Assembly: GCA_036376135.1 (NCBI GenBank)
Contig: DASVAW010000137.1
Location: 1 to 59,753 of the forward strand
Direction of reading: 5' to 3'
DNA: 59,753 bases
Source of the DNA: Candidatus Polarisedimenticolaceae bacterium
GTDB taxonomy: Bacteria > Acidobacteriota > Polarisedimenticolia > Polarisedimenticolales > DASRJG01
Shown here piece by piece: positions 1,207-14,820 of this stretch. How positions within the stretch are numbered: position 1 is the first letter of the stretch; every line of letters begins with the position of its first letter. Under the pieces are notes generated by a model that saw nothing but the letters and a program-made list of their open reading frames with translations, made no database searches and was not told the origin of the DNA. The position numbers were made by a program, and so were the translations under genes.

Positions 1207-3960
1207 ATGCGGGTAGCGCTTCTCCACGGCGTGTTCCTTATCTTGGTTTCGCTCGCGTCGGCGCACGCCCGCGCTCCCGGTTACGACGAGCAACTGAGCG
1301 CGGAGCTCGCCGTCGCGAAGCTCCAGCACGGGTGGACCCTCGATGCCGGTCCCTTCGACGAGCGGCGCGTCACGGCCCATCTGGCGCCGAAGGTCGCGCG
1401 CCGAACGGTCACGCAGGGTCCGACCCGCTTCGAGCTCGAGATCGAGTGGCAGCGCATCCGCACCAACACCCGCTTCCCCGAACGTCTCGCGCAGATCGAA
1501 CGCGCGCTCGGACATGACCTCGACCTGATCCTCGAGGCCTTCGTGCGGCCGGTCCTCGAGACACGAGGAAGCGCCGGGTTCGGATCGCATGCCGGATTCG
1601 GACCCGACGACACGTGGTCGGCGGGAGTGCTGGACGACGCTCCGACGACTCGCGGGAATCACACGGCGGTGTGGACGGGAAGCCTCCTGATCTTCTGGGG
1701 CGGCCTCTCGGGGGCCGCGGACACACCCGTCGCCACCGGCAATCGATACGATCCCGTCGCCGACGCGTGGTCGGCCGTATCGACGATCGCCGCCCCGGCC
1801 GCGCGCTCGCGGCACACCGCCGTCTGGACGGGCTCGAGGATGATCGTGTGGGGCGGATTCTCCGCGAAGGCCGACGGCGCCGCCTACGATCCCGTCAGCG
1901 ACACGTGGACGCCGCTCGGCCTCACGGGCGCCCCCGCGGGGCGTCACGACCACACCGCGGTCTGGACGGGCTCGAAGATGATCGTGTTCGGGGGCACCGG
2001 CGCGGCGGGCACGCTGGGGGACGGCGCGGCCTACGATCCGGACACGGACTCCTGGTCGCCGCTTTCGACGGTCAACGCGCCAGCGGCGCGGGCCTCGCAC
2101 ACCGCCGTCTGGACGGGATCCACGATGATCGTGTGGGGAGGATCCGATCTCGCGACGGGCGGGCGCTACGATCCGTCGTCGAACACCTGGGCGCCGACCG
2201 CCACGACGGGTGCCCCTGCCGGTCGCAGCGATCACGTCGCCTCGTGGACCGGCTCACGCATGCTCGTCTGGGGTGGCGGCCCCGGCACGACCGCGGTCAA
2301 CACGGGCGGCGCCTACGACCCCGTCGCGGACGTCTGGTCGCCGATCTCCACCACGGGCGCTCCTGCGGGTGCCCGCGACCCTTCGTCGGCGTGGGCCGAC
2401 ACGAGGCTGCTCGTGTGGGGCGGCAACTCCGGCAACCCGGGTGGACGATACGACCCCGCCTGGGACACCTGGACGCCGATGTCGATCGTCGGAGCGCCCG
2501 CGAGTCGCAGCCGGCACACCGGCACATGGACCGGCTCGCGCTTCGTCATCTTCGCCGGGCAGTTCCTCGCGAAGGGCGAGCCACTGGACTCCTACACCAA
2601 CGGAGGGGCGAGCTACGACCCGGCGACCGACTCGTGGCGTTCGCTGCTTCCTCCCGCGGTCCGTTCCGGCGCCTCGATCGTCTGGACCGGAACCCAGGCC
2701 ATCGTCTGGGGAGGAGTGCACCGGCCGCGACTGAGCGACGGCGGTCGCTACGATCCCCTCGTGGACGCCTGGTTCGGCATCTCGCCGATCGGCGCCTTAT
2801 CCCCGCGAAGTTCGCACGCCGCCGTATGGACCGGAACCGAGATGATCCTGTGGGGCGGGGCCGGGAGCAACTCGACGCCTCTGGGCGACGGCGCCGCCTA
2901 CGACCCGCAGCAGGACCAGTGGCGACCCGTGAGCAACGTGGGAGCGCCGAGTGCCGGCACAGATGTGGCCATCGCCTGGACCGGTTCGGAGGTGCTCGTC
3001 TGGGGAGGAGCGCCGAGCGGGGCGCGGTACTCCCCCGCCGACGACACCTGGACGCCGATCTCCGCGACCGGGGCGCCGGGCGGGCGATTCAACTTCCAGT
3101 TCGCGTGGACCGGATCGAAGCTCTTCATCTGGGGCGGAACGGTCTCCGGCGTTTACGTCCCGACGGGTGCGCTCTACGACCCCGCGAGCGACTCGTGGAC
3201 TCCGACGACGACCGTGAACGCACCGACCGGTCGCCAACTCGCGGCGACGACCTGGACAGGGCGTCGCGTCGTCGTCTGGGGAGGAAGGAGCACCTTCGAC
3301 GTGTCGCAGGGCGGTCGTTACGACCCTTCGATCGACGCGTGGGAGCCGATCTCGACCTTCGGTGCGCCCGCGCTGCGCGAGCAGCCCACCGCGGCGTGGA
3401 CGGGTGGCCGTGTCTTGATCTGGGGTGGAAACACCACGGCCCCGGGCGGACGCTACGATCCCGTCAACGACACGTGGAGCCCGATGAGCGCCGTCGGAGA
3501 GCCGGCCCCGTTCCGCACGAGCTTCAACTCCCTTTGGACCGGCGAGCACATGCTCGTGTGGGGAGGGCAAACCGGATCGACGATGGGCCGCGACGGCTCC
3601 CTCTACCGCTCGGCGATCGACACCGACGGCGACGGTGCGCTCGATCAACACGACTGCGACCCGTGGGACCCGCTCGTCGTCTCGACTCCCGGTCCCGCCG
3701 AAGGGCTCGGGTTCGACGCCGACCGGATCACCCTGAGATGGACGAGCGCCGCGGGAGCCGCAAGCCACGAGTTGTCTCGCGGCGATCTCGAGGTGGTGCG
3801 GGGGGGCGGCTCGCTCGACACGTGCGTGGCGACCGGCCTCGCGACGAGCGCCACCGACGCGGTCGTCCCCGCCGCGGGGGCGGGGTTCGCGTATCTGGTG
3901 CGAGGCCGGAACGCGTGCGGCGCCGGAGCGTGGGGATCGCCGGGTGGAGCCTGCCCCTAG
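1207..3960 (+). CDS. Secreted Kelch-repeat beta-propeller protein
   Basis: This exported protein of 917 residues has a signal peptide (LLHGVFLILVSLASAHA), a helical linker, and then 14 Kelch-type repeats of about 50 residues. Each repeat has the pattern WTG, (M/L)IVWGG, YDP and DTW, so two seven-bladed propellers are possible. After the repeats comes one calcium-loop sequence (DTDGDGALDQHDCDPW) and a C-terminal Fn3-like domain ending CGAGAWGSPGGACP. That tail closely parallels the end of the giant FG-GAP/TSP3 protein encoded at 34,728-41,642. I chose the ATG at 1207 because it opens the signal peptide and has AGGTGG upstream. The stop overlaps the convergent regulator gene in a shared CTAG. 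The role is probably surface binding or adhesion; no enzyme motif is seen. Confidence 0.85.
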   Translation: MRVALLHGVFLILVSLASAHARAPGYDEQLSAELAVAKLQHGWTLDAGPFDERRVTAHLAPKVARRTVTQGPTRFELEIEWQRIRTNTRFPERLAQIERALGHDLDLILEAFVRPVLETRGSAGFGSHAGFGPDDTWSAGVLDDAPTTRGNHTAVWTGSLLIFWGGLSGAADTPVATGNRYDPVADAWSAVSTIAAPAARSRHTAVWTGSRMIVWGGFSAKADGAAYDPVSDTWTPLGLTGAPAGRHDHTAVWTGSKMIVFGGTGAAGTLGDGAAYDPDTDSWSPLSTVNAPAARASHTAVWTGSTMIVWGGSDLATGGRYDPSSNTWAPTATTGAPAGRSDHVASWTGSRMLVWGGGPGTTAVNTGGAYDPVADVWSPISTTGAPAGARDPSSAWADTRLLVWGGNSGNPGGRYDPAWDTWTPMSIVGAPASRSRHTGTWTGSRFVIFAGQFLAKGEPLDSYTNGGASYDPATDSWRSLLPPAVRSGASIVWTGTQAIVWGGVHRPRLSDGGRYDPLVDAWFGISPIGALSPRSSHAAVWTGTEMILWGGAGSNSTPLGDGAAYDPQQDQWRPVSNVGAPSAGTDVAIAWTGSEVLVWGGAPSGARYSPADDTWTPISATGAPGGRFNFQFAWTGSKLFIWGGTVSGVYVPTGALYDPASDSWTPTTTVNAPTGRQLAATTWTGRRVVVWGGRSTFDVSQGGRYDPSIDAWEPISTFGAPALREQPTAAWTGGRVLIWGGNTTAPGGRYDPVNDTWSPMSAVGEPAPFRTSFNSLWTGEHMLVWGGQTGSTMGRDGSLYRSAIDTDGDGALDQHDCDPWDPLVVSTPGPAEGLGFDADRITLRWTSAAGAASHELSRGDLEVVRGGGSLDTCVATGLATSATDAVVPAAGAGFAYLVRGRNACGAGAWGSPGGACP

Positions 3961-5081
3961 ACCTCTTGCCCGACTCCCCGCTCCCCCTCGCGGAACTCGA
4001 CCGACTTCAGCGCGTACTTGCGCAGCAGCCGCTGCAGCGCCGACCGGAGCATGCCGGAGTACGCCGCCGCCGCGGTGACGTTCCCCCCGTGTCGGCGCAT
4101 CAGGTCGGCGAGGTACGCGCGCTCGAACGCCTCGACGACCCGCCGCTTCGCGTCGCGGAAGGGGCGGTCGGCGACGACGTCTCCGGGCCCGGGGTCCCCC
4201 CCTCCGGTCTGGCGAACCGCCTCCGGCAGGTGCTCGGGGCGGATCCATCCGTCGGGCGCGAGGAGCGCCGCGTGCTCGACCACGCGCCGGAGCTCGCGGA
4301 CGTTGCCGGGCCAGCGCCAGCGCGAAAGCGCCTCCGCGGCCTCGGGATCGAAGCGCATCGCCGTGAGGTCGTTGATCGCCCGTAGGGCGTCGAGGAATCC
4401 CTGCGCGATCAGCGGCACGTCCTCGAGTCGCTCGCGAAGCGGCGGAAGGTGGACGACCGAAGTGCCGAACCACGACACGACGTCGCGCGAGACCCTCCCC
4501 TCGTCCGCGGCGCGCCGCGGGTCGCGCGACGTGGCGCCGACGATCCGCGTCTGCAGGCGTCCCGCCGCGTAGTCCCGAAGCAGTCGGTCGAGGGTCGCCG
4601 CGGGAAGGTCGAGGATCTCCTCGACGAACAACGTGCCGTCGGCGGCGAGGTCGACGAGGCCGCCGTTCTTGCGGAACAACTCCTCCTCGAAGGCGCCGGG
4701 AGCCGAGACCCGCGCGTCGGCGACGACGAAGGGGGCCGCGTGACGGGACGAGCGCTGGTGCAACAATCGCGCGGCGAGCTCTTTCCCGGTCCCCGGCTCC
4801 CCGACGAGCAACACGGGGTCGTCGGAGGCCGACAGGCGCGCGACGCGCTCGCGCACGCGCTCCATCCCCTCGCTCCTTCCGACCAGGCCGGAGAAGCCGG
4901 AGGCCTCGCTCGCCTCGAAGCGGCGGGAGTGGTAGTCGCTCAGGATCGGGGCGACGATCTCGATCGCCTCCGAGACGCCGTGGACGTTCCGGGCCTCGAC
5001 CCCGCGTTCGGCGAGGGCGCCGACGATTTCGCGGGCTTCACCCGGATTCCGACTCACGACGAGGATGACCGGGCGTTCCAT
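3957..5081 (-). CDS. NtrC-type AAA+ regulator lacking the GAFTGA loop
   Basis: The 374-residue protein begins with a short receiver-like segment without a recognisable phospho-acceptor Asp. An AAA+ domain follows, with Walker A GEPGTGKE, a Walker B-like DGTLFVEEI, and WPGNVRELRR (sensor II region). A Fis-type helix-turn-helix (GNVTAAAAYSGM...LQRLLRKY) closes the protein. Between ELF and the Walker B strand the usual ERGAFTGA loop is absent, replaced by about ten other residues. That loop contacts sigma54, so this is probably not a normal sigma54 activator. The start is the ATG with GGGAGGGA upstream; a GTG six codons earlier is less likely. A TATACT box at 5126-5131 may be its -10. The gene is convergent with the Kelch gene. 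Confidence 0.85.
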   Translation of the reverse strand: MERPVILVVSRNPGEAREIVGALAERGVEARNVHGVSEAIEIVAPILSDYHSRRFEASEASGFSGLVGRSEGMERVRERVARLSASDDPVLLVGEPGTGKELAARLLHQRSSRHAAPFVVADARVSAPGAFEEELFRKNGGLVDLAADGTLFVEEILDLPAATLDRLLRDYAAGRLQTRIVGATSRDPRRAADEGRVSRDVVSWFGTSVVHLPPLRERLEDVPLIAQGFLDALRAINDLTAMRFDPEAAEALSRWRWPGNVRELRRVVEHAALLAPDGWIRPEHLPEAVRQTGGGDPGPGDVVADRPFRDAKRRVVEAFERAYLADLMRRHGGNVTAAAAYSGMLRSALQRLLRKYALKSVEFREGERGVGQEV

Positions 5082-5125
5082 GCGGCGTCCCTCCCTCACG
5101 CGCCGATCGCGAGATTCGTGGGGGG

Positions 5126-5131
5126 AGTATA
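5126..5131 (-). promoter_or_regulatory. Candidate -10 box TATACT of the AAA+ regulator
   Basis: TATACT lies 44 bases upstream of the ATG at 5081 in the gap between the AAA+ regulator and the FNR-like gene. No good -35 hexamer is visible at 16-18 bases, so this is tentative. Confidence 0.35.
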
Positions 5132-5171
5132 GATCGACGGGCCGCGGAAAACGCCGAAAAACGAAACCCCG

Positions 5172-5918
5172 CTACTCCTGCACCCGCTCGACCTCGTCGA
5201 TCAGCAGGTCGAGGTCGGGGACCACCGCGTGGCGCCGGTCGAAGCGCGCCACGCCGTCGTTCTCCAGGTCCCGAAGCACGCGGGAGAGACTCTCGGGGCG
5301 TGCCCCCACCATCGCGGCGATGTCGCGCCTGGAGAGGGGCAGCTCGATCGTCAGCGTCCCGTCGTCGTCCACCGTCGAGTTGCGGTCCTTGAAGATGAGG
5401 AGCAGGTGGGCGAGCCTCGCGCGCAGCGGGAGGGTCAGCGCGCGCACGCGTTCGGTTTCGGAGTCGACCAGGCGCTCGGAGACCCGGTTGAGGAAGCGAA
5501 GTCCCAACGAGGGGTTCCGGTCGAGCAGGGTGCGGACACCCGCCTTCTCGATGAAGCACACCTGCGTGCGCTCGAGGGCCTCGGCGCTGGCGGTGTGCTC
5601 GCGCGCCGAGAAGAAGGCGGTGTAGCCGAGCGTCTGCCCCTCGCCGAAGATCCCCACGACCACGGCGCCGCCGTTGCCGTCGGACTTCTTCAGCGCGACC
5701 GAGCCTCCTTCGATGCAGTGGATCCCCAGGCACGGACTGCCTTCGTAGTAGATCACCTGCCCCGGCTCGTAGACGTTGCAGACCTTGTGCTGGTTGAGGA
5801 TCTTGAGATCCTCCGGTTCCAGCACGCACCACTCCGACCGATCGCGCGACTGACAGGTGAAGCAATTGGTCTGTCGCCGGGACGGAGAGCCACCAATTCG
5901 ATAAAGACCGTTCCCCAT
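5172..5918 (-). CDS. Crp/FNR family regulator, probable redox sensor
   Basis: This is a 248-residue regulator with an N-terminal cysteine group (C19-X2-C22-X8-C31), a cyclic-nucleotide-like sensor barrel with further cysteines (C47, C63, C68), a dimer helix and a C-terminal winged helix. The recognition helix has E209-x-x-S212-R213, the triplet with which FNR reads TTGAT. The cysteine spacing resembles FNR, but the third gap is longer, so an iron-sulfur cluster is plausible, not shown. The start was set at the ATG at 5918. A longer reading (ATG at 5978) would run through the FNR box at 5943-5956. The gene diverges from the cbb3 oxidase operon, which it probably controls together with itself. 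Confidence 0.88.
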   Translation of the reverse strand: MGNGLYRIGGSPSRRQTNCFTCQSRDRSEWCVLEPEDLKILNQHKVCNVYEPGQVIYYEGSPCLGIHCIEGGSVALKKSDGNGGAVVVGIFGEGQTLGYTAFFSAREHTASAEALERTQVCFIEKAGVRTLLDRNPSLGLRFLNRVSERLVDSETERVRALTLPLRARLAHLLLIFKDRNSTVDDDGTLTIELPLSRRDIAAMVGARPESLSRVLRDLENDGVARFDRRHAVVPDLDLLIDEVERVQE

Positions 5919-5942
5919 GACGGCGTGATTGTGGTGCGGAAG

Positions 5943-5956
5943 TTGATTTCTATCAA
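5943..5956. promoter_or_regulatory. FNR box, perfect TTGAT-N4-ATCAA palindrome
   Basis: The sequence TTGATTTCTATCAA matches the FNR/Anr consensus in all ten defined positions. It lies between the divergent FNR-like gene (start 5918) and the first gene of the cbb3 operon (start 6029). Its centre (5949.5) would put a class II start site near 5991, 38 bases before the first plus-strand gene. On the minus side it is 31 bases upstream of the regulator's start. Confidence 0.85.
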
Positions 5957-6028
5957 GTGCCCCGGTAACGGCCGTCAAGGTCGGAGGACTCCCGCGTGCC
6001 TAGACTGGCGCGGAACGAGGAGATCCCC

Positions 6029-6391
6029 ATGGACCTGCGACGACCCGACCGCAAGCAGGATGCCCTGGCGAAAGCGCTGGGGAACCTCCCGGACGTCACC
6101 CCCGTCGCCGCGCACAGCGGCCAGGTGCTGCTCTATCCACACCACGTCCCCAACGGGCTCTACCTGGTCCTGCAGGGTGTGGTGCGCCGGGACAGCAACC
6201 GCCTGATGGACGCGAGCCGCGGGCCCTTCCTGATCCCGTCCTACGACGAGCTCGACCGTCCGGCGCCCACGAGCTTCACGGTGGCGCGCGAGACCCGCAT
6301 GCTCTTCATCCCCCGGAGCCTCGCCCTGTTCGACGGGGAGGTCCGAAGGCTGCTCGAGAGCGCCGGTCTCGCCGGACGACCGACCGCCTGA
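6029..6391 (+). CDS. Stand-alone cyclic-nucleotide-binding-like (cupin-fold) protein
   Basis: This 120-residue protein looks like the sensor barrel of a Crp/FNR regulator on its own. The segment YPHHVPNGLYLVLQGVVR (about residues 40-57) matches the 'pxGLYLVLxGxV' strand pair of the family, and no helix-turn-helix follows. It is the first gene downstream of the FNR box and lies 26 bases before ccoNO, so it is probably co-transcribed with the oxidase. I chose the ATG at 6029 because AGGAG sits 6 bases upstream. A GTG at 5996 has no such site. It may sense a ligand or modulate the neighbouring regulator; its role is unknown. Confidence 0.7.
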   Translation: MDLRRPDRKQDALAKALGNLPDVTPVAAHSGQVLLYPHHVPNGLYLVLQGVVRRDSNRLMDASRGPFLIPSYDELDRPAPTSFTVARETRMLFIPRSLALFDGEVRRLLESAGLAGRPTA

Positions 6392-6417
6392 ACCGTTCCC
6401 GAACGGAGGTCCGCACG

Positions 6418-8670
6418 TTGAACACCTCGCCTCGCCTCGAGTCCTTCGTCTACGACGACGCGATCGTCCGGAAGTTCCTGTTCGCGACCCTGCTCTGGGG
6501 GATCGTGGGAACGCTCGCCGGGGTCGTGATCGCGCTCCAGCTGGCGGTGCCGGCGCTCAACTTCGACCTGCCGTTCCTCACGTTCGGCCGCCTGCGTCCG
6601 CTGCACACGAACGCGGTGATCTTCGCCTTCGCGGGGAACGCGATCTTCACGGGCGTTTATTACTCGTGCCAACGCCTGCTGAAGACGCGGATGTTCTCCG
6701 ACGCGCTGAGCGCGATCCACTTCTGGGGCTGGCAGCTGATCATCGTGCTCGCCGCGATCACCCTCCCGCTCGGCTTCACGAGCGCGAAGGAATACGCCGA
6801 GCTCGAGTGGCCGATCGACATCCTGATCGCGCTCGTCTGGGTCGTCTTCGCGGTGAACGTCTTCGGGACGATCGCGAGGCGCCGTGAGCGTCACCTGTAC
6901 GTGGCCATCTGGTTCTACATCGCGACCCTGATCGCGATCGCGGTCCTGCACATCTTCAACAGCCTCGAGATGCCCGCGAGCCTGCTGAAGAGCTACTCGG
7001 TCTACGCCGGGGTGCAGGACGCCTTCATGCAGTGGTGGTACGGGCACAACGCGGTGGCGTTTTTCCTCACCACGCCGTTTCTGGGCCTCATGTATTACTT
7101 CATGCCGAAGGCGGCCGACCGGCCGGTCTTCTCCTACAAGCTGTCGATCCTCCACTTCTGGACGCTGGTCTTCATCTACATCTGGGCGGGGCCCCACCAC
7201 CTCCACTACACCGCGCTGCCCTCGTGGGCGTCGACCCTCGGGATGTTGTTCTCGATCATGTTGTGGATGCCGTCCTGGGGGGGGATGGTCAACGGCCTGC
7301 TGACCCTGCGGGGCGCCTGGAACAAGGTCGCCGAGGACCCGATCCTCAAGTTCTTCGTCGTCGCGGTGACGTTCTACGGAATGTCCACCTTCGAGGGGCC
7401 GCTGCTCTCCATCAAGAGCGTGAACGCCCTCTCGCACTACACCGACTGGACGATCGCGCACGTGCACGGCGGGGCGCTCGGCTGGGTCGGCTTCATGACC
7501 TTCGGGATGGTGTACTGGCTGCTCCCGCGCCTGTTCCAGGCGCCGCTTTGGAGCCGCAAGGCCGCCGAGATCCACTTCTGGACCTCGACGATCGGCATCC
7601 TGCTCTACATCGTCGCGATCTACGCCGCCGGGCTCACGCAGGGGCTGATGTGGCGCGCCTTCGACGAGGGCGGCCGCCTCGCCTACCCCGACTTCGTCGA
7701 AACCGTGATGCGGCTGATGCCGATGTACTGGCTGCGCGTGGGCGGCGGGGTGCTCTACGTCGCCGGTGTGGTGATCTGCATGGTCAACGCGATCCTGACG
7801 TGGCGGTCGCGGCCCGCGCGCTACGAGGAGCCCGTCCACCGGGCCCCGGCCCTCTCGCGCGACTACGTCGACCACGAGCCCGGCTCGAAGCTCAAGCAGT
7901 CCGGCGCCCCGGTGGCCGGGTTCGCCTACACTCTCGAGCGTTTCGTCGGCGCCGCCTGGCACCGCCGGTGGGAGCGCCTCCCGCTGACCTTCACGGTCTG
8001 GACGACGGTCGCCGTCGTCACCGCGTCGCTCTTCGAGATCGTCCCCACCTTCCTCATCCGCTCCAACGTCCCCACGATCGCGGCCGTGAAGCCCTACACC
8101 CCGCTCGAGGCGGCGGGGCGCGACGTGTACATCGCCGAGGGGTGCAACAACTGCCACTCGCAGATGGTGCGGCCGATCCACAGCGAGACGCAGCGTTACG
8201 GCGAGTACTCGAAGCCGGGCGAGTTCGTCTACGACCACCCGTTCCTGTGGGGCTCGCGTCGCATCGGCCCCGATCTCCACCGCGTGGGCGGGAAGTACCC
8301 GAACCTCTGGCACGTCCGCCACTTCGAGAACCCGCCCGCGGTCACGCCGAACTCGATCATGCCGCGGTACCCGTGGCTGCTGAAGGACACGATCGACTTC
8401 ACCTCCCTCGCGCCGCGCCTGAAGGCGCTGCGCGCGGTCGGCGTCCCCTACGACGACGCCGCGATCGCGGGGGCGGAGTCCCTCGCGAAGACCCAGGCGG
8501 CGAAGATCGCCGCGGACGTCGAGACGCAGGGCGGCCCCGCCGGGCTCGAGGACAAGCAGGTGGTCGCGCTGATCGCCTACCTGCAGCGCCTCGGGACCGA
8601 CATCAAGCTCGCGGCGCCGGCGGCGGCCCCGGCGCCGCCCGTCGCCGCCGCCGGGGCGAGCGCACGATGA
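6418..8670 (+). CDS. ccoNO: Cytochrome cbb3 oxidase, fused subunits I and II (CcoN-CcoO)
   Basis: The 750-residue fusion reduces O2 to water in the cytoplasmic membrane with high affinity. Residues 1 to about 480 are CcoN: multiple membrane helices, H63 (low-spin haem), CuB ligands H210, H260 and H261, the helix VII tyrosine Y254, and haem ligands H348 and H350. After a linker and one more membrane helix (about 530-550) comes the CcoO cytochrome c domain with C576-N-N-C-H580 and a downstream Met-rich segment. In many bacteria these are two genes. The start is TTG at 6418, supported by GGAGG 8 bases upstream. The stop overlaps the next start (ATGA). Confidence 0.96.
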   Translation: MNTSPRLESFVYDDAIVRKFLFATLLWGIVGTLAGVVIALQLAVPALNFDLPFLTFGRLRPLHTNAVIFAFAGNAIFTGVYYSCQRLLKTRMFSDALSAIHFWGWQLIIVLAAITLPLGFTSAKEYAELEWPIDILIALVWVVFAVNVFGTIARRRERHLYVAIWFYIATLIAIAVLHIFNSLEMPASLLKSYSVYAGVQDAFMQWWYGHNAVAFFLTTPFLGLMYYFMPKAADRPVFSYKLSILHFWTLVFIYIWAGPHHLHYTALPSWASTLGMLFSIMLWMPSWGGMVNGLLTLRGAWNKVAEDPILKFFVVAVTFYGMSTFEGPLLSIKSVNALSHYTDWTIAHVHGGALGWVGFMTFGMVYWLLPRLFQAPLWSRKAAEIHFWTSTIGILLYIVAIYAAGLTQGLMWRAFDEGGRLAYPDFVETVMRLMPMYWLRVGGGVLYVAGVVICMVNAILTWRSRPARYEEPVHRAPALSRDYVDHEPGSKLKQSGAPVAGFAYTLERFVGAAWHRRWERLPLTFTVWTTVAVVTASLFEIVPTFLIRSNVPTIAAVKPYTPLEAAGRDVYIAEGCNNCHSQMVRPIHSETQRYGEYSKPGEFVYDHPFLWGSRRIGPDLHRVGGKYPNLWHVRHFENPPAVTPNSIMPRYPWLLKDTIDFTSLAPRLKALRAVGVPYDDAAIAGAESLAKTQAAKIAADVETQGGPAGLEDKQVVALIAYLQRLGTDIKLAAPAAAPAPPVAAAGASAR

Positions 8671-8876
8671 GCCTCACCGACATCATGAGCGAGGCGAACC
8701 TGCACTTCTGGGCGGAAGTCGCCCTGGTGATGTTCGTCGTGCTGTTCGTCGGCGTCGTGCTCTACGTCTTCTCCCGCCGGAACCGCGCCGCGTTCGATCG
8801 CGCCAGCCGCCTGCCGCTCGACGACGCCCCGACCGAAACGGGCGTCCAGGAGAACCCTCGACATGAGCGCCGTTGA
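8667..8876 (+). CDS. ccoQ: Cytochrome cbb3 oxidase small subunit CcoQ
   Basis: This 69-residue protein has one membrane helix (VALVMFVVLFVGVVLYVF, about 18-35) followed by SRRNRAAFDRASRLPLDD, the usual CcoQ/FixQ pattern of a helix and a short charged cytoplasmic tail. It sits between ccoNO (4-base overlap) and ccoP (14-base overlap), which is the standard position. CcoQ stabilises the oxidase complex. The family is weakly conserved, so the name relies on position as well as sequence. Confidence 0.85.
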   Translation: MSLTDIMSEANLHFWAEVALVMFVVLFVGVVLYVFSRRNRAAFDRASRLPLDDAPTETGVQENPRHERR

Positions 8877-9495
8877 TCCCGAGAAGCTGCTCGACCACGA
8901 ATACGACGGCATCCAGGAGTACGACAACCCCCTGCCGGGGTGGTGGCAGCTGCTGTTCTGGGGGACGATCGTGTTCTCGGCCGTCTACATGCTCTATTAC
9001 CACGCGGGCGAGGGGCGGTCCGAGCTCCAGCAATACGAGGCGGACATGCTGGCGCTGGGCGAGATGCAGGCGAAAGAGGCGCTCTCCGCCGGGCCGGTGA
9101 CCGATGCGACGCTCGAGGGGCTGCGGGCCAACCAGGGAATGATGCTCGGCGCGCGGCAGCTGTTCGTCTCGAAGTGCGCGACGTGCCACGGCGAGAACGG
9201 CGAGGGGAAGATCGGCCCGAACCTCACCGACGACTACTGGCTGCACGGCGGCCTGCCGACGAACATCCACAAGACGATCACCGACGGGGTCCCGGCGAAG
9301 GGGATGATCAGCTGGAAGCAGCAGCTGCGCCCCGGGGAGATCGCGGCGCTCGCGGCGTACGTGACCACCCTGCACGGCACGAACCCGGCCAACCCCAAGG
9401 AGCCGCAGGGCGAGCGGTTCACCGCCCCGCCCGCGGCGGCGGGCGCACCCGCCGCGCCGACGCCCCCCGAGGCGACGAAGGGCGCGAAGGAGTAG
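8863..9495 (+). CDS. ccoP: Cytochrome cbb3 oxidase subunit III (CcoP), single haem
   Basis: The 210-residue protein starts with the CcoP hallmark YDGIQEYDNPLPGWW, then a membrane helix (LLFWGTIVFSAVYMLYY, about 31-47), a linker, and a cytochrome c domain with C105-A-T-C-H109 and a methionine ligand candidate in GMISW. Proteobacterial CcoP has two haem domains; only one CxxCH is present here. The C-terminus is a low-complexity Ala/Pro tail. It carries electrons from the soluble donor to the CcoO haem. The start lies inside the end of ccoQ. Confidence 0.93.
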   Translation: MSAVDPEKLLDHEYDGIQEYDNPLPGWWQLLFWGTIVFSAVYMLYYHAGEGRSELQQYEADMLALGEMQAKEALSAGPVTDATLEGLRANQGMMLGARQLFVSKCATCHGENGEGKIGPNLTDDYWLHGGLPTNIHKTITDGVPAKGMISWKQQLRPGEIAALAAYVTTLHGTNPANPKEPQGERFTAPPAAAGAPAAPTPPEATKGAKE

Positions 9496-9497
9496 CC

Positions 9498-10892
9498 ATG
9501 CCCCCCGCGACGCCCCCCGAGGTCGCGCCCTCCACCGTCCTGCCGACGATGAACGCGGACGGGTCGCGCCGCTGGGTGCGGCCGAAGCTCTCCCGCGGGC
9601 CCTACTGGCGTCGGCGCTTCGCGGTCGCGTGGGCCCTCATCGTGCTGTTCGCCGTGATCCCCCACCTCCGGATGAACGGCAAGCCCGCGATCCTGCTCGA
9701 CGTCGTGCACCGCCGCTTCACGCTGTTCGGAACCACGTTCCTTCCGACCGAGACGCTGCTGCTCATGCTGCTGCTGGTCGGGACGTTCCTCCTGGTCTTC
9801 CTGCTCACCGCGATCTACGGCCGCGTCTGGTGCGGCTGGGCGTGCCCGCAGACCGTCTACATGGAGTTCCTCTACCGGCCGGTCGAGACGCTTCTCGAGG
9901 GAAATCGCGCCCGCCAGCTCAAGCTCGACCGCGAGGGCCCCGACGTCCGCCGTTTCCTGAAGTACGGCGTCTTCGTCCTGTTCTCCATGTTCCTCGCGCA
10001 CACCTTCCTGGCCTATTTCGTGGGCACCGAGGCGCTGGCGCGCTGGATCACCCGCTCGCCCTTCGAGCACCCCGCCGCGTTCCTGATCATGGCGGGGACG
10101 ACCGCGGCGATGTTGCTCGACTTCGGCGTCCTGCGCGAGCAGGTGTGCCTCGTGGCGTGCCCGTACGGACGATTCCAGTCGGTGCTGCTCGACCGCCGCT
10201 CGCTCATCGTGGGGTACGACGCCGCGCGCGGGGAGCCGCGATCGCGCCTGGGGACGCGCCCCGACCGCACCGCCGGCCCCGACTGCATCGACTGCCGCGC
10301 GTGCGTGGAGACCTGCCCGACCGGGATCGACATCCGCGACGGCCTCCAGATGGAGTGCATCCACTGCACGCAGTGCATGGACGCGTGCGACACGGTGATG
10401 GCGAAGATCGGTCGCCCCCAGGGCCTCGTGCGCTACACCTCGCGCGACGAGCTCGCCGGGGCGAAGCCCCGGCGCCTGCGCGCGCGGCTTCTGATCTACC
10501 CGGCCCTTCTCGTCGTCGCGTGGGGCGCGCTGGGCGTCGCGCTCGCCCGCCGCGAGTCCGCGGAGGTGACGCTGCTTCGCGGCATCGGCGTTCCGTTCAC
10601 GATCCTGCCGGACGGCCAGGTGTCGAACCAGATGCGGATCAAGATCGCCAACCGCGGCGACACGGACCGCAGCTACCGGCTCGAGCTCGTCGACGCCGCC
10701 GGCCTCACGCTCGTCGCGCCGGACAACCCGCTGCACGTCCCCGCCGACAAGCTGGTGGAGACGACCGCGTTCGTGGTCGGCGACGACGACGCGATCCCGG
10801 GAGGCATGCGCAACGTCGTGCTGCGCGTCGACGACGGAGCCGGCTTCACCGCCGAGAAGCCCTGGCGCGTCCTCGGACCGGAGGAGGATTGA
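9498..10892 (+). CDS. ccoG: Cytochrome oxidase accessory protein CcoG (FixG/RdxA)
   Basis: This 464-residue membrane ferredoxin has several membrane helices, the CxxxCP motif RVWCGWACPQ in the first half, and two ferredoxin-type [4Fe-4S] motifs (CIDCRACVETCP and CIHCTQCMDACD). The C-terminal domain is an Ig-like periplasmic fold. CcoG is reported to reduce copper during CuB site assembly of cbb3 oxidase. It follows ccoP directly, with 2 bases between stop and ATG, and overlaps ccoH by 4 bases. Confidence 0.95.
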   Translation: MPPATPPEVAPSTVLPTMNADGSRRWVRPKLSRGPYWRRRFAVAWALIVLFAVIPHLRMNGKPAILLDVVHRRFTLFGTTFLPTETLLLMLLLVGTFLLVFLLTAIYGRVWCGWACPQTVYMEFLYRPVETLLEGNRARQLKLDREGPDVRRFLKYGVFVLFSMFLAHTFLAYFVGTEALARWITRSPFEHPAAFLIMAGTTAAMLLDFGVLREQVCLVACPYGRFQSVLLDRRSLIVGYDAARGEPRSRLGTRPDRTAGPDCIDCRACVETCPTGIDIRDGLQMECIHCTQCMDACDTVMAKIGRPQGLVRYTSRDELAGAKPRRLRARLLIYPALLVVAWGALGVALARRESAEVTLLRGIGVPFTILPDGQVSNQMRIKIANRGDTDRSYRLELVDAAGLTLVAPDNPLHVPADKLVETTAFVVGDDDAIPGGMRNVVLRVDDGAGFTAEKPWRVLGPEED

Positions 10893-11368
10893 AGGGGCGC
10901 GCCTGGCCGTGGATGCTCGTGGGGCTCCTCGTCTTCGGCGTGGGGGTCAACATCGGCTTCCTGATCGTCGCGACGGGGGATCCGTCGTTCGCGGTCGAGG
11001 AGGACTACTACGGGCGCGCGCTGCGATGGGACGAGACGACCCGCGAGGCGGCGAGCAACGCCGAGCTGGGCTGGACGGTCGCCGTCGAGCCGACCCCCTC
11101 CGCGAAGGGGCCCGGCTGGACCGACCTCGCCCTTCACGTCGTCGATCGCGACGGAAACCCGGTGACCGGCGCGCTCGTCTCGGTCGAGGCCTTCCACCAC
11201 GCGCGTGCGGCGGACCGCCTGCGCGTCGACCTCGTCGCGTCGGGCGAGCGCTACGCGGCGACGCTGCCGATGCGGCGCGCCGGCCTGTGGGAGCTTCGCG
11301 TGCGCGTCGAGAAGGGCGCGACCACCTTCACGACCGTGCTCGACCGCGAGCTCGGGGGGTTGCGGTGA
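10889..11368 (+). CDS. ccoH: FixH/CcoH family oxidase assembly protein
   Basis: This 159-residue protein has one N-terminal membrane helix (WPWMLVGLLVFGVGVNIGF) and then the FixH-type segment FAVEEDYYGRALRWDE, followed by a beta-sandwich periplasmic domain. CcoH is a single-span protein needed for stable cbb3 assembly. The start is TTG at 10889 inside the ccoG stop (TTGA), with GGAGGAGG just upstream. Confidence 0.88.
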   Translation: MKGRAWPWMLVGLLVFGVGVNIGFLIVATGDPSFAVEEDYYGRALRWDETTREAASNAELGWTVAVEPTPSAKGPGWTDLALHVVDRDGNPVTGALVSVEAFHHARAADRLRVDLVASGERYAATLPMRRAGLWELRVRVEKGATTFTTVLDRELGGLR

Positions 11369-12084
11369 CCGCGGCCGCCCTCGCGGTGTTCGGCGCGAGC
11401 CTCGCGGGAAGCCTCCATTGCGCGGGGATGTGCGGCCCTCTCGTCCTGCTCTGGGCGGGAGAGGGCGAGGACCCGCGCGCCGCGCGCTTCGGGCACGTCG
11501 CCTACAACGCGGGCCGCCTCGTCGCGTACGCCGCCATGGGCGCCGTCGCGGGGGCGATCGGCGCCGCCGTCGAGGTCACCGGCGCCGTCGCCGGCTTCTC
11601 GGGGACCGCCGCGCTCCTCGGCGGCGCCTTCGTGGCGTTGTGGGGGCTGCACGGCGTGCTGGGCGCGCTCGGCGCGCGCGTGCCTCGCCTCGCCCCTCCC
11701 GCCCGGTGGGCCGGAGCGGCGGCGCGGGCGATGCGTGCGGTCCGGGGGATGCCCGTTCCGGCGCGCGCGGGTCTGCTCGGCCTCCTCTCGGCGCTGCTCC
11801 CGTGCGGATTCCTCTGGGCGTTCGTCGCGACGGCGGCCGGGACCGGCTCGCCGGCGTCGGGAGCCGCGGTGATGGCGCTGTTCTGGTCGGGGACCCTACC
11901 CGCCCTCGTGGCGGTGGGCGCGGCGGCGAGGCGGATCGCGGGACCGCTCCGGCGGCGCCTCCCGCTCGTGACCGCCGCCGTCGTCCTCGTCGTCGGACTC
12001 GCGGTCGTCGCCAAACGGGCGTGGCCCGTCCACGCCGATCCCGGATCGGCGACGACGTCCGGTTGCTGCGACCATGCCCACTGA
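11365..12084 (+). CDS. SafE/TauE-like membrane protein of the cco cluster
   Basis: The 239-residue protein has six or so hydrophobic segments. It begins with the motif GASLAGSLHCAGMCGPLVLL and repeats the theme as LLSALLPCGFLWAF in the second half, so pairs of membrane Cys-containing motifs frame the protein. This is the sulfite exporter TauE/SafE-like (UreH/DsbD-type) family often found in cbb3 maturation clusters, where copper or thiol transport is suspected. The C-terminus ends GCCDHAH, a likely metal-binding tail. The GTG start overlaps the ccoH stop (GTGA). Confidence 0.82.
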   Translation: MTAAALAVFGASLAGSLHCAGMCGPLVLLWAGEGEDPRAARFGHVAYNAGRLVAYAAMGAVAGAIGAAVEVTGAVAGFSGTAALLGGAFVALWGLHGVLGALGARVPRLAPPARWAGAAARAMRAVRGMPVPARAGLLGLLSALLPCGFLWAFVATAAGTGSPASGAAVMALFWSGTLPALVAVGAAARRIAGPLRRRLPLVTAAVVLVVGLAVVAKRAWPVHADPGSATTSGCCDHAH

Positions 12085-14560
12085 GCTCCCGGTCTGCGCG
12101 CACTGCGGCCTTCCCGTCCCGCCCGCGCGCGTCGTCGCGCCTTCGGCGGAGGCGTTCTGCTGCGACGGGTGCGCCTCGGTGCACGCGATCCTCGTCGGCG
12201 AGGGGCTCGACCGCTGGTACGCGCTGCGCGACGCCGACGCGCGCGCCGATCGCCGCGCCGCGCGCACGACCGGCGCCACCTTCGACGCGATGGACGATCC
12301 GGCGTACGCATCGGTCGCCTGTCGCGAGAGGCCGGACGGCCTCCGCGAGGTCGACTGGGTCCTCGAAGGGGTCCACTGCGCCGCTTGCGTGTGGCTGGTC
12401 GAGCGTCTCCCCCGCCTGGCGCCGGGGGTCGTCGAGGCGCGCCTGGACCTTCCGAAGTCGCGTCTGCGCCTGACGTGGGACCCGGCCCGCACCGCGCTCT
12501 CGTCGATCGCGCGGCGCCTGGATCGCTTCGGCTACCCGCCCCATCCGTTCCGCGGGGCGCGCGCCGAGCAGGCCCGCCGCGCGGAGGAGCGCCGGATGCT
12601 CGTGCGCCTCGGGATCACCGGCGCCTGCGCCTCGAACGTCATGGCGATCGCCTTCGCGTTGTGGGGCGGGATTCTCGGCGGCATGGAGCGCGAGTTCGAC
12701 CAGTTCTTCCGCTGGGCGAGCGTGGCGATCTCGCTCCCGGCCCTCTACTGGGGGGGAGGCGTCTTCTTCCGGGGGGCCTGGAACGCGCTGCGCGCCCGGA
12801 CCCTCCACATGGACGTCCCGATCGCCCTCGGGATCACCGGCGGCTTCGCCCACGGCGTGGTCAACACGATCCGGGGCGGCGGCGTCGTCTACTTCGACTC
12901 GGTCACCGCCCTGATTTTCCTCCTGCTCGCCGGGCGCTGGGTCCAGATGCGCCAGCAGCGGAGGGCCGCCGACTCGGCGGAGCTTCTGGTCGCGCTGGCT
13001 CCTTCGACCGCGCGACGCGTCGAGGAGGACGGCATCGTGCGAGAGGTCCCGGTCGAGGCGCTGCTTCCCGGGATGCGCGTGGAGGTGCGCGCCGGAGAGA
13101 CCTTTCCGGCCGACGGCGTGGTCGCCGAGGGACGGACCTCGGTCGACCGGTCGTTGCTCACCGGCGAATCGCACCCCCAGGCCGCGAGCGCCGGCGACGA
13201 GGTCCATGCCGGAACGCTCAACCTCGCCGCCCGCGTCCTCGTCGCGGTGCGGACGACCGGCGAGGCGACGCGCGTCGGACGCCTCATGCGCCTCGTCGAG
13301 GAGCACGCCGCGCGGCGTGCCCCGATCGTGCAGCTGGCCGACCGGATCTCGGGAGTCTTCGTCGCGATCGTGCTCGTGCTCGCGGCGCTCACGGCGCTGT
13401 TGTGGTTGCGGCTCGACCCGGCGCGCGCCTTCGATCACACGATCGCGCTGCTGATCGTGACCTGCCCGTGCGCCCTCGGGCTCGCCACTCCGCTCGCGGT
13501 CGGCGCCGCGGTCGGCCAGGCCGCGCGCGCGGGGATCCTGATCAAGGGGGGGGACGCCCTCGAGCGCCTGTCGGTCGCGGGCCGGATGTGGCTCGACAAG
13601 ACGGGGACGTTGACCGAGGGGAACCTCGCGGTCGTGGCGTTCGAGGGGGACCGCGGCGCGCTCCGGCTCGCGGCGGCCCTGGAGACCCATTCCTCCCATC
13701 CGACGGCGCGCGCCCTCGCGGCCTTCGACCCGGGCGCGGCGGAGCTCGCGGCCGTCGACGTCGTCGAGACCCGCGGAGGCGGGATCGAGGGACGGGTCGC
13801 CGGCCGGAAGGTGCTCGCGGGATCGATCGCCTTCGTCCGGGCGCGGGGTGTGGTCCCCGATCCGGCGACGGCCGCCCGCCTCGCAGGCTGGGCGCGCGAC
13901 GGTCGAACCCCGGTCGTCGTCGCGCTGGACGGCCGCGTCGCCGCCGCGGCCGCTCTGGGGGACCGCCCGCGCGAGGGGACCGAAGCGGCGCTCGCGCGCA
14001 TCCGCGCGCTGGGGTTCCGGACGGGCCTGCTCTCGGGGGACCATCCCGACGTCGCGGCCTCGGTCGCGCGGCGACTCGGTTTCGAAGGGGACGACGTCCG
14101 CGCGGGGGCCACACCGGAGGACAAGCTCGAGATCGTGCGCGCCGGTGCGAAGGAGGGGCCCGTCTTCATGGTCGGGGACGGGGTGAACGACGCGGCGGCG
14201 CTCGCGGCGGCGACGGTGGGGATCGCGGTCCACGGCGGGGCGGAAGCCGCCCTCGAGGCGGCCGACGTCTACGTGAACCGCGCGGGACTCGGCCCCGTCG
14301 TCGAGGTCCTCGAGGGATCGCGCCGGGCGATGGCCGTCGTGCGGCGCAACCTCGCCTTTTCGTTCGCCTACAACGCGCTGGGGGTGGTGCTCGCCATGGC
14401 GGGGTGGATCAACCCCCTCGTGGCCGCGGTGCTGATGCCTCTCAGCTCGATCACGGTCATCGTCAGCTCGTACCGCGCGCGGATGTTCGACCCGCCCGCG
14501 CACCCGGAACCCGCGGCGCGTCGGGCCGCCGAGCGCCCGGCCGAGAAGGCGGTCGCATGA
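12074..14560 (+). CDS. ccoI: Copper-transporting P1B-type ATPase CcoI (FixI)
   Basis: This 828-residue pump supplies copper for the cbb3 CuB centre. It begins with a Cys-rich zinc-ribbon-like segment (C8-A-H-C11, then CCDGC), then a heavy-metal domain with C102-A-A-C105. Membrane helices follow, with the actuator segment TGESHP, the transport motif C464-P-C466, the phosphorylation site D508-KTGTLT, the HP motif (SSHPTARAL) and [10 protein letters not shown] in the hinge. All catalytic residues are present. The first 11 bases overlap the SafE-like gene, and the stop overlaps ccoS (ATGA). Confidence 0.95.
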
Positions 14561-14820
14561 GCGTGTTGTACGTGCTGCTGCCGCTCGCCCTCGCCTTCGC
14601 GGCGGGAGCGGTCGCGTGGTTCGTCTGGGCGGTGCGGTCGGGGCAGTTCGACGATCTGGAGACGCCGGCGCTGCGGGTGCTGCTCGACGAGGAGGACGAG
14701 AAGTCCCCGGACGCGCTCAGGACCGAAGGCGCACCTGCAGGTCCGCCACGCGCTGGCGCACCTCGCGGTACCCCGGATCGGCCTGCAGGACCTCCTGAAA
14801 GAGGTCCAGGGCGCTCCTGA
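14557..14820 (+). CDS. ccoS: Cytochrome oxidase maturation protein CcoS
   Basis: This 87-residue protein has one membrane helix ([21 protein letters not shown]) followed by [19 protein letters not shown], the CcoS signature of a helix plus a D-D/L-E-P-rich cytoplasmic tail. CcoS is needed to insert cofactors into cbb3 oxidase. Typical CcoS is about 50-60 residues. The extra Pro/Gly/Arg-rich C-terminus here runs about 100 bases into the 3' end of the convergent TPR gene, so the true end is unusual but fixed by the first in-frame stop. Confidence 0.85.

Follow-up and report, generated by a model that had tools for sequence, protein, structure and literature searches.

How is a cbb3 oxidase operon connected to an FNR-type regulator when the two are transcribed away from each other across a short shared region, and is the regulator an oxygen sensor of a familiar kind? 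FNR control of a cbb3 oxidase is a textbook arrangement, and to our knowledge this wiring has rarely been worked out outside well-studied groups. We analyzed a 59,753-nucleotide stretch from a Candidatus Polarisedimenticolaceae bacterium of the phylum Acidobacteriota (contig DASVAW010000137.1), referred to as the window, in which the regulator gene (fnr) and the oxidase genes are as follows.

5172..5918, minus strand: FNR-type regulator, 248 aa (Pfam hits, 10-orthologue alignment, residue check)
6418..8670, plus strand: ccoNO, fused CcoN-CcoO (NCBIfam PRK14485, 1239 bits, cut-off 1080)
8667..8876, plus strand: CcoQ-like short membrane protein, 69 aa (position and sequence only)
8863..9495, plus strand: ccoP (FixP_N and Cytochrome_CBB3)
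9498..10892, plus strand: ccoG (TIGR02745 above cut-off)
10889..11368, plus strand: FixH/CcoH-like protein (position and sequence only)
11365..12084, plus strand: TauE/SafE-like membrane protein (position and sequence only)
12074..14560, plus strand: ccoI, copper P-type ATPase (TIGR01511 above cut-off)
14557..14820, plus strand: ccoS (TIGR00847 above cut-off)

With CcoN, CcoO and CcoP accompanied by CcoG, CcoI and CcoS, the plus-strand genes form a cbb3 oxidase operon. The CcoN-CcoO fusion, for which NCBIfam has a model (PRK14485), is a single protein of 750 aa, and CcoP is short (210 aa); the Pfam scan shows one cytochrome c domain in it. On the minus strand, the regulator reads from an ATG at 5918 to 5172 and carries a cNMP_binding domain (PF00027) followed by HTH_Crp_2 (PF13545), both above the Pfam cut-off. 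Adjoining fnr at 3957-5099, also on the minus strand, is a gene whose product has a Fis-type HTH in addition to a sigma-54 activator ATPase domain; we found no counterpart of it beside fnr in the orthologous loci.

The regulator has three N-terminal cysteines and one central cysteine, as expected of the FNR class, arranged as C19-X2-C22-X8-C31 and C121, so that the N-terminal spacing is X2/X8 vs X2/X5 or X2/X7. In our own alignment C121 falls on C122 of E. coli FNR. The recognition helix reads E209-x-x-S212-R213 and is paired, at the sequence level, with a TTGAT-N4-ATCAA candidate target, which is again characteristic of the class. Among NCBIfam models the best match is the FnrL equivalog NF045989, at 72.2 bits against a curated cut-off of 300, while the Fnr subfamily PRK11161 (NF008365) gives 25.4 bits against a curated cut-off of 228.

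We searched for relatives in a 396-genome sample of the phylum and found orthologues of the regulator in nine other genomes, all from one family of the same class and 51-57% identical in the alignment. No orthologue at this level of similarity was present in nine other genomes of the window's own order, and single-protein scans of genome-contig and viral-contig collections returned no relatives. C19, C22, C63, C68, C121, E209, S212 and R213 are invariant in all ten orthologues, the window copy included, and C31 is kept in nine, the exception being the regulator of genome G328 (locus L042), which has Phe at that position. The original prediction, which staked its case on conservation of C19, C22, C31 and a central cysteine in homologues, therefore survives its own test. 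Its suggestion that the sensor chemistry may be new is not supported, since the spacing lies near the known range: Paracoccus FnrP has a proven [4Fe-4S] cluster on Cys14, 17, 25 and 113, that is, CX2CX7C (PMC4771820), and CX2CX8C itself recurs elsewhere in the phylum, in remoter Crp/Fnr proteins such as that of L020 (CPECGLQKDGFFC). Five of these distant proteins (L020, L022, L023, L029 and L032) apparently have Asn at the C121 position, and in several of them a Cys (EPCQIN or similar) precedes this position by about two residues; the fourth ligand may thus be another one in that large group.

Since C63 and C68 are invariant and could themselves serve as ligands, we considered whether the regulator might be a thiol or other metal switch that uses these residues with the N-terminal cysteines, rather than an Fe-S oxygen sensor, a reading that the missing C31 of G328 would also suit. 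We regard it as unlikely, since the cysteine pattern parallels that of FnrP (CX2CX7C plus a central Cys) and since the FNR of At. ferrooxidans, in which the third cysteine is likewise absent, can still drive an FNR-dependent promoter (PMC6659574). An AlphaFold2 model of the regulator was rejected as a guide to Fe-S geometry: pLDDT in the cysteine region is about 55 or less, so that a meeting of the four cysteines could not be shown. Together, these findings suggest that the regulator is probably an FNR-class protein with an oxygen-labile [4Fe-4S] cluster on C19, C22, C31 and C121.

The region between fnr and the oxidase operon holds the elements through which such a protein could act.

5943..5956, no strand assigned: site 1, perfect FNR box TTGATTTCTATCAA (exact TTGAT-N4-ATCAA), centered at -63.5 of the operon promoter
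5965..5978, plus strand: site 2, degenerate FNR box GTAACGGCCGTCAA, starting 22 bp past the start of site 1 and centered at -41.5
6001..6006, plus strand: TAGACT, -10 hexamer of the operon promoter, its start 36 bp past that of site 2
5928..5956, minus strand: predicted sigma-70 promoter of fnr, TTGATA - 17 bp - CACAAT (promoter scan), with its -35 within site 1

A perfect box between the FNR-like gene and the oxidase operon had been noted, and it is present at 5943-5956. It is the sole match in the window at one mismatch or fewer (0.07 expected) and the sole exact TTGAT-N4-ATCAA in the 4.38-Mb genome, which has 26 one-mismatch boxes. Site 2, on the other hand, is poor, agreeing with the consensus at 6 of 10 positions. 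For promoter geometry we took the eight loci with the divergent arrangement and a readable promoter. In seven of them the start of a second FNR-like site lies exactly 22 bp past that of site 1, and in the eighth the spacing is 32 bp, one helical turn more; in all eight, a TAGACT-like hexamer then starts exactly 36 bp past the start of site 2. The site 2 score was reached by none of 5,000 shuffles of the downstream sequences. Taking the hexamer as -12 to -7 centers site 2 at -41.5; site 1 then falls at -63.5, or at -73.5 in the locus with the longer spacing, and operon transcription would start near 6012-6013. Relative to the conserved -10 and this predicted start, site 2 occupies the class II position in all eight loci, and the promoter has no recognizable -35. 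Since 19 of 23 FNR-activated E. coli promoters of known start have a site near -41.5 (PMC3688515), the degenerate site, not the perfect box, is the likeliest activating site, and the perfect box is most likely an upstream helper rather than the activating class II site. Our literature search returned nothing direct on tandem FNR sites at such spacing.

To relate the tandem sites to the regulator, we compared 41 genomes of the class. The pattern occurs with zero mismatches in 8 of 10 regulator-positive and 0 of 31 regulator-negative genomes (Fisher p 5e-7), counts and probabilities that, here and below, overstate independence because nine of the ten positive genomes belong to one family; the four tandem matches in regulator-negative genomes all carry one mismatch. 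This distribution and the fixed geometry argue for control of the oxidase by the regulator, as originally predicted, through two sites in place of the one proposed. The prediction also pointed to E209-x-x-S-R as the triplet by which FNR reads TTGAT. The residues are in place, but the motif does not discriminate, since all four Crp/Fnr HTH proteins above the Pfam cut-off in the genome (the regulator and three others) share it, and the recognition helix alone cannot name the reader of the box. The same fact leaves room for the main reader of the box to be a different Crp/Fnr protein, such as a DNR- or FixK-like regulator, with the neighboring FNR incidental. We consider this quite improbable, since the tandem sites track the regulator over the 41 genomes and the arrangement is fixed beside it; it is this co-occurrence, not the helix, that points to the regulator as the reader.

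Does the regulator also control its own gene? The predicted fnr promoter is the only promoter-like match in 5700-6600 and none appeared in shuffles in an independent scan. On the fnr strand, TTGAYN-17-nAnAAT is exact in 5 of the 10 loci and found in about 8 of 10 when 16-18 bp are allowed, against 1 in 5,000 shuffles; two loci of one genus (L038 and L039) have no -10 on this strand. FNR bound at site 1 would cover the fnr -35, which makes autorepression the likeliest form of self-control, and the regulator most likely represses its own gene through site 1. Self-control by the regulator, claimed at the outset in general terms, is in this way retained only as probable repression. The distance from the box to the fnr start codon varies between loci, whereas the geometry on the oxidase side is fixed. 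In the window, fnr transcription may start near 5921, a few bases before the ATG, so that the message would be almost leaderless.

The first reading of this stretch, which ran to 6391, did not mention a separate gene within it that comes before ccoNO.

6017..6022, plus strand: GAGGAG, probable ribosome-binding site of sCNB (sequence)
6029..6391, plus strand: sCNB (a name given here), 120 aa, single cNMP-binding-type beta-roll, no HTH (profile, co-occurrence, AlphaFold2)

The sCNB sequences, which we aligned across nine genomes, are 29-37% identical to the window copy. Pfam PF00027 matches eight of the nine members, at best with 1.6e-8, and the window copy falls below the cut-off. The AlphaFold2 model of sCNB is confident (pLDDT 89) and has the beta-roll fold, matching residues 6-124 of CRP with Z 11.7 and an rmsd of 2.2 Å over 104 residues; this match places the end of sCNB where the dimerization helix starts, with no HTH to follow. 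When we inspected the nine sequences by eye, using the alignment and strand order, the Glu and Arg of the phosphate cassette were not conserved at the expected positions, which makes a normal cAMP response unlikely. We also asked whether sCNB is a distant copy of the FNR beta-roll and rejected the idea, as the profile comparison (E 1.5e-4, probability 51%) supports no more than a common fold. Weak sCNB matches in seven genomes of another family were left out of the counts, since the one that we looked at proved to be a common type of cNMP-binding protein, 195 aa long, whose cassette is canonical.

sCNB is present in 9 of 10 regulator-positive and 0 of 31 regulator-negative genomes of the class. 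Since it heads the oxidase operon in 8 of its 9 loci and is poorly conserved, it could also be an oxidase accessory or passenger gene unrelated to the regulator, within an otherwise identical FNR circuit; we hold this to be a real possibility, somewhat short of an even chance. What speaks against it is that five class genomes with ccoNO and without the FNR orthologue also lack sCNB, and ccoNO loci without the regulator show neither convincing FNR sites nor sCNB. A further argument comes from genome G012, where fnr and sCNB stay adjacent while ccoNO, of another ccoNO lineage, lies on another contig. There sCNB has tandem sites of its own at the 22-bp spacing, and TAGCGT stands where the -10 is expected. 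This arrangement and the distribution of sCNB speak for a connection with the regulator more than with the oxidase, the G012 argument being that of one genome among related lineages. From its distribution and gene neighborhood, sCNB would most likely belong with FNR, as its partner or feedback modulator, and not with the oxidase as a subunit.

The fnr-sCNB pair of G012 (L044, 4285-4787 with 4810-6055) directly follows four tRNA genes (Pro, Arg, Arg, His). tRNA gene clusters are frequent places of gene insertion, and the pair may have moved as a unit. The ccoNO tree gave no resolution on horizontal transfer of the module into the window genome. G328, whose regulator lacks C31, has no sCNB, and its fnr lies far from ccoNO. 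Further tandem FNR-like pairs 22 bp apart are found there at other genes (G328:C1 297148-297182, 820375-820409 and 3281416-3281451; L144, L147 and L143), with no clear -10 at the same distance, as if the regulator had turned more global.

Altogether, we propose a self-contained low-oxygen switch made up of FNR, the tandem sites, autorepression, and sCNB as a partner or modulator of FNR, and we give this explanation as a whole a probability of about two in three. It builds on what comparison of the loci provides, namely, conserved cysteines and recognition residues, two sites at fixed spacing with a -10, a predicted overlap with the fnr -35, and co-occurrence of sCNB with FNR. At low oxygen, an FNR dimer would bind the perfect site 1, and its presence there would help FNR onto site 2, the weak one at -41.5. 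Bound at site 2, FNR would act as a class II activator of sCNB-ccoNO-Q-P-G-H-(TauE)-I-S, while FNR at site 1 would cover the divergent fnr -35 and so limit its own synthesis. sCNB, as the first product of the operon, would then act on FNR as a partner or feedback modulator. In a stricter form, which we offer tentatively and would sooner doubt than expect, sCNB, lacking a canonical nucleotide pocket, would be made only under active FNR as its dedicated partner, bind FNR, and tune it or shut it off; the circuit would then have two negative feedback loops, one through site 1 on the fnr promoter and one through sCNB on the protein.

Most of the circuit belongs to a known type; what is new is its refined wiring and, above all, the tracking of the regulator by sCNB. 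Comparative sequence yields a precise promoter model, in which a weak site at -41.5 is combined with a strong site at -63.5 that doubles as the fnr operator, and it also brought to light a small sensor-domain protein without an HTH that follows the regulator. If sCNB acts on FNR, an oxygen sensor would be under feedback at the protein level in a way for which we found no description in the literature searched; the search likewise returned nothing direct on HTH-less Crp/Fnr partners.

Among known systems, the regulator resembles Paracoccus FnrP in its N-terminal Cys triad, central Cys and FNR-type target, and Rhodobacter FnrL as an FNR-class regulator and its best NCBIfam match. It differs from both in having CX2CX8C instead of CX2CX7C and two extra invariant cysteines, C63 and C68, and its 72 bits are below the FnrL cut-off of 300. 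The operon promoter is like the class II FNR promoters of E. coli (narG, dmsA and nirB) in having an FNR site centered at -41.5 and a -10. Unlike in those promoters, the -41.5 site here is weak, the perfect site is found some two helical turns upstream (three turns in the locus where it is at -73.5), and this perfect site also overlaps the predicted fnr promoter. sCNB shares the beta-roll fold of the CRP sensor domain, but it stops at the start of the dimerization helix, lacks the HTH, and does not conserve the cassette Glu and Arg. Its closest parallel in behavior may be FixT of Caulobacter and Sinorhizobium, a single-domain inhibitor of the FixL kinase whose expression the microaerobic switch induces (PMC7078487). 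FixT is a receiver domain, one able to take up an Fe-S cluster, whereas sCNB is a cNMP-type beta-roll and the window copy is free of cysteines. Both, however, are small one-domain relatives of a regulator domain that are co-induced with a high-affinity oxidase, as predicted in the case of sCNB, and FixT thus provides a precedent for feedback of the type that we propose.
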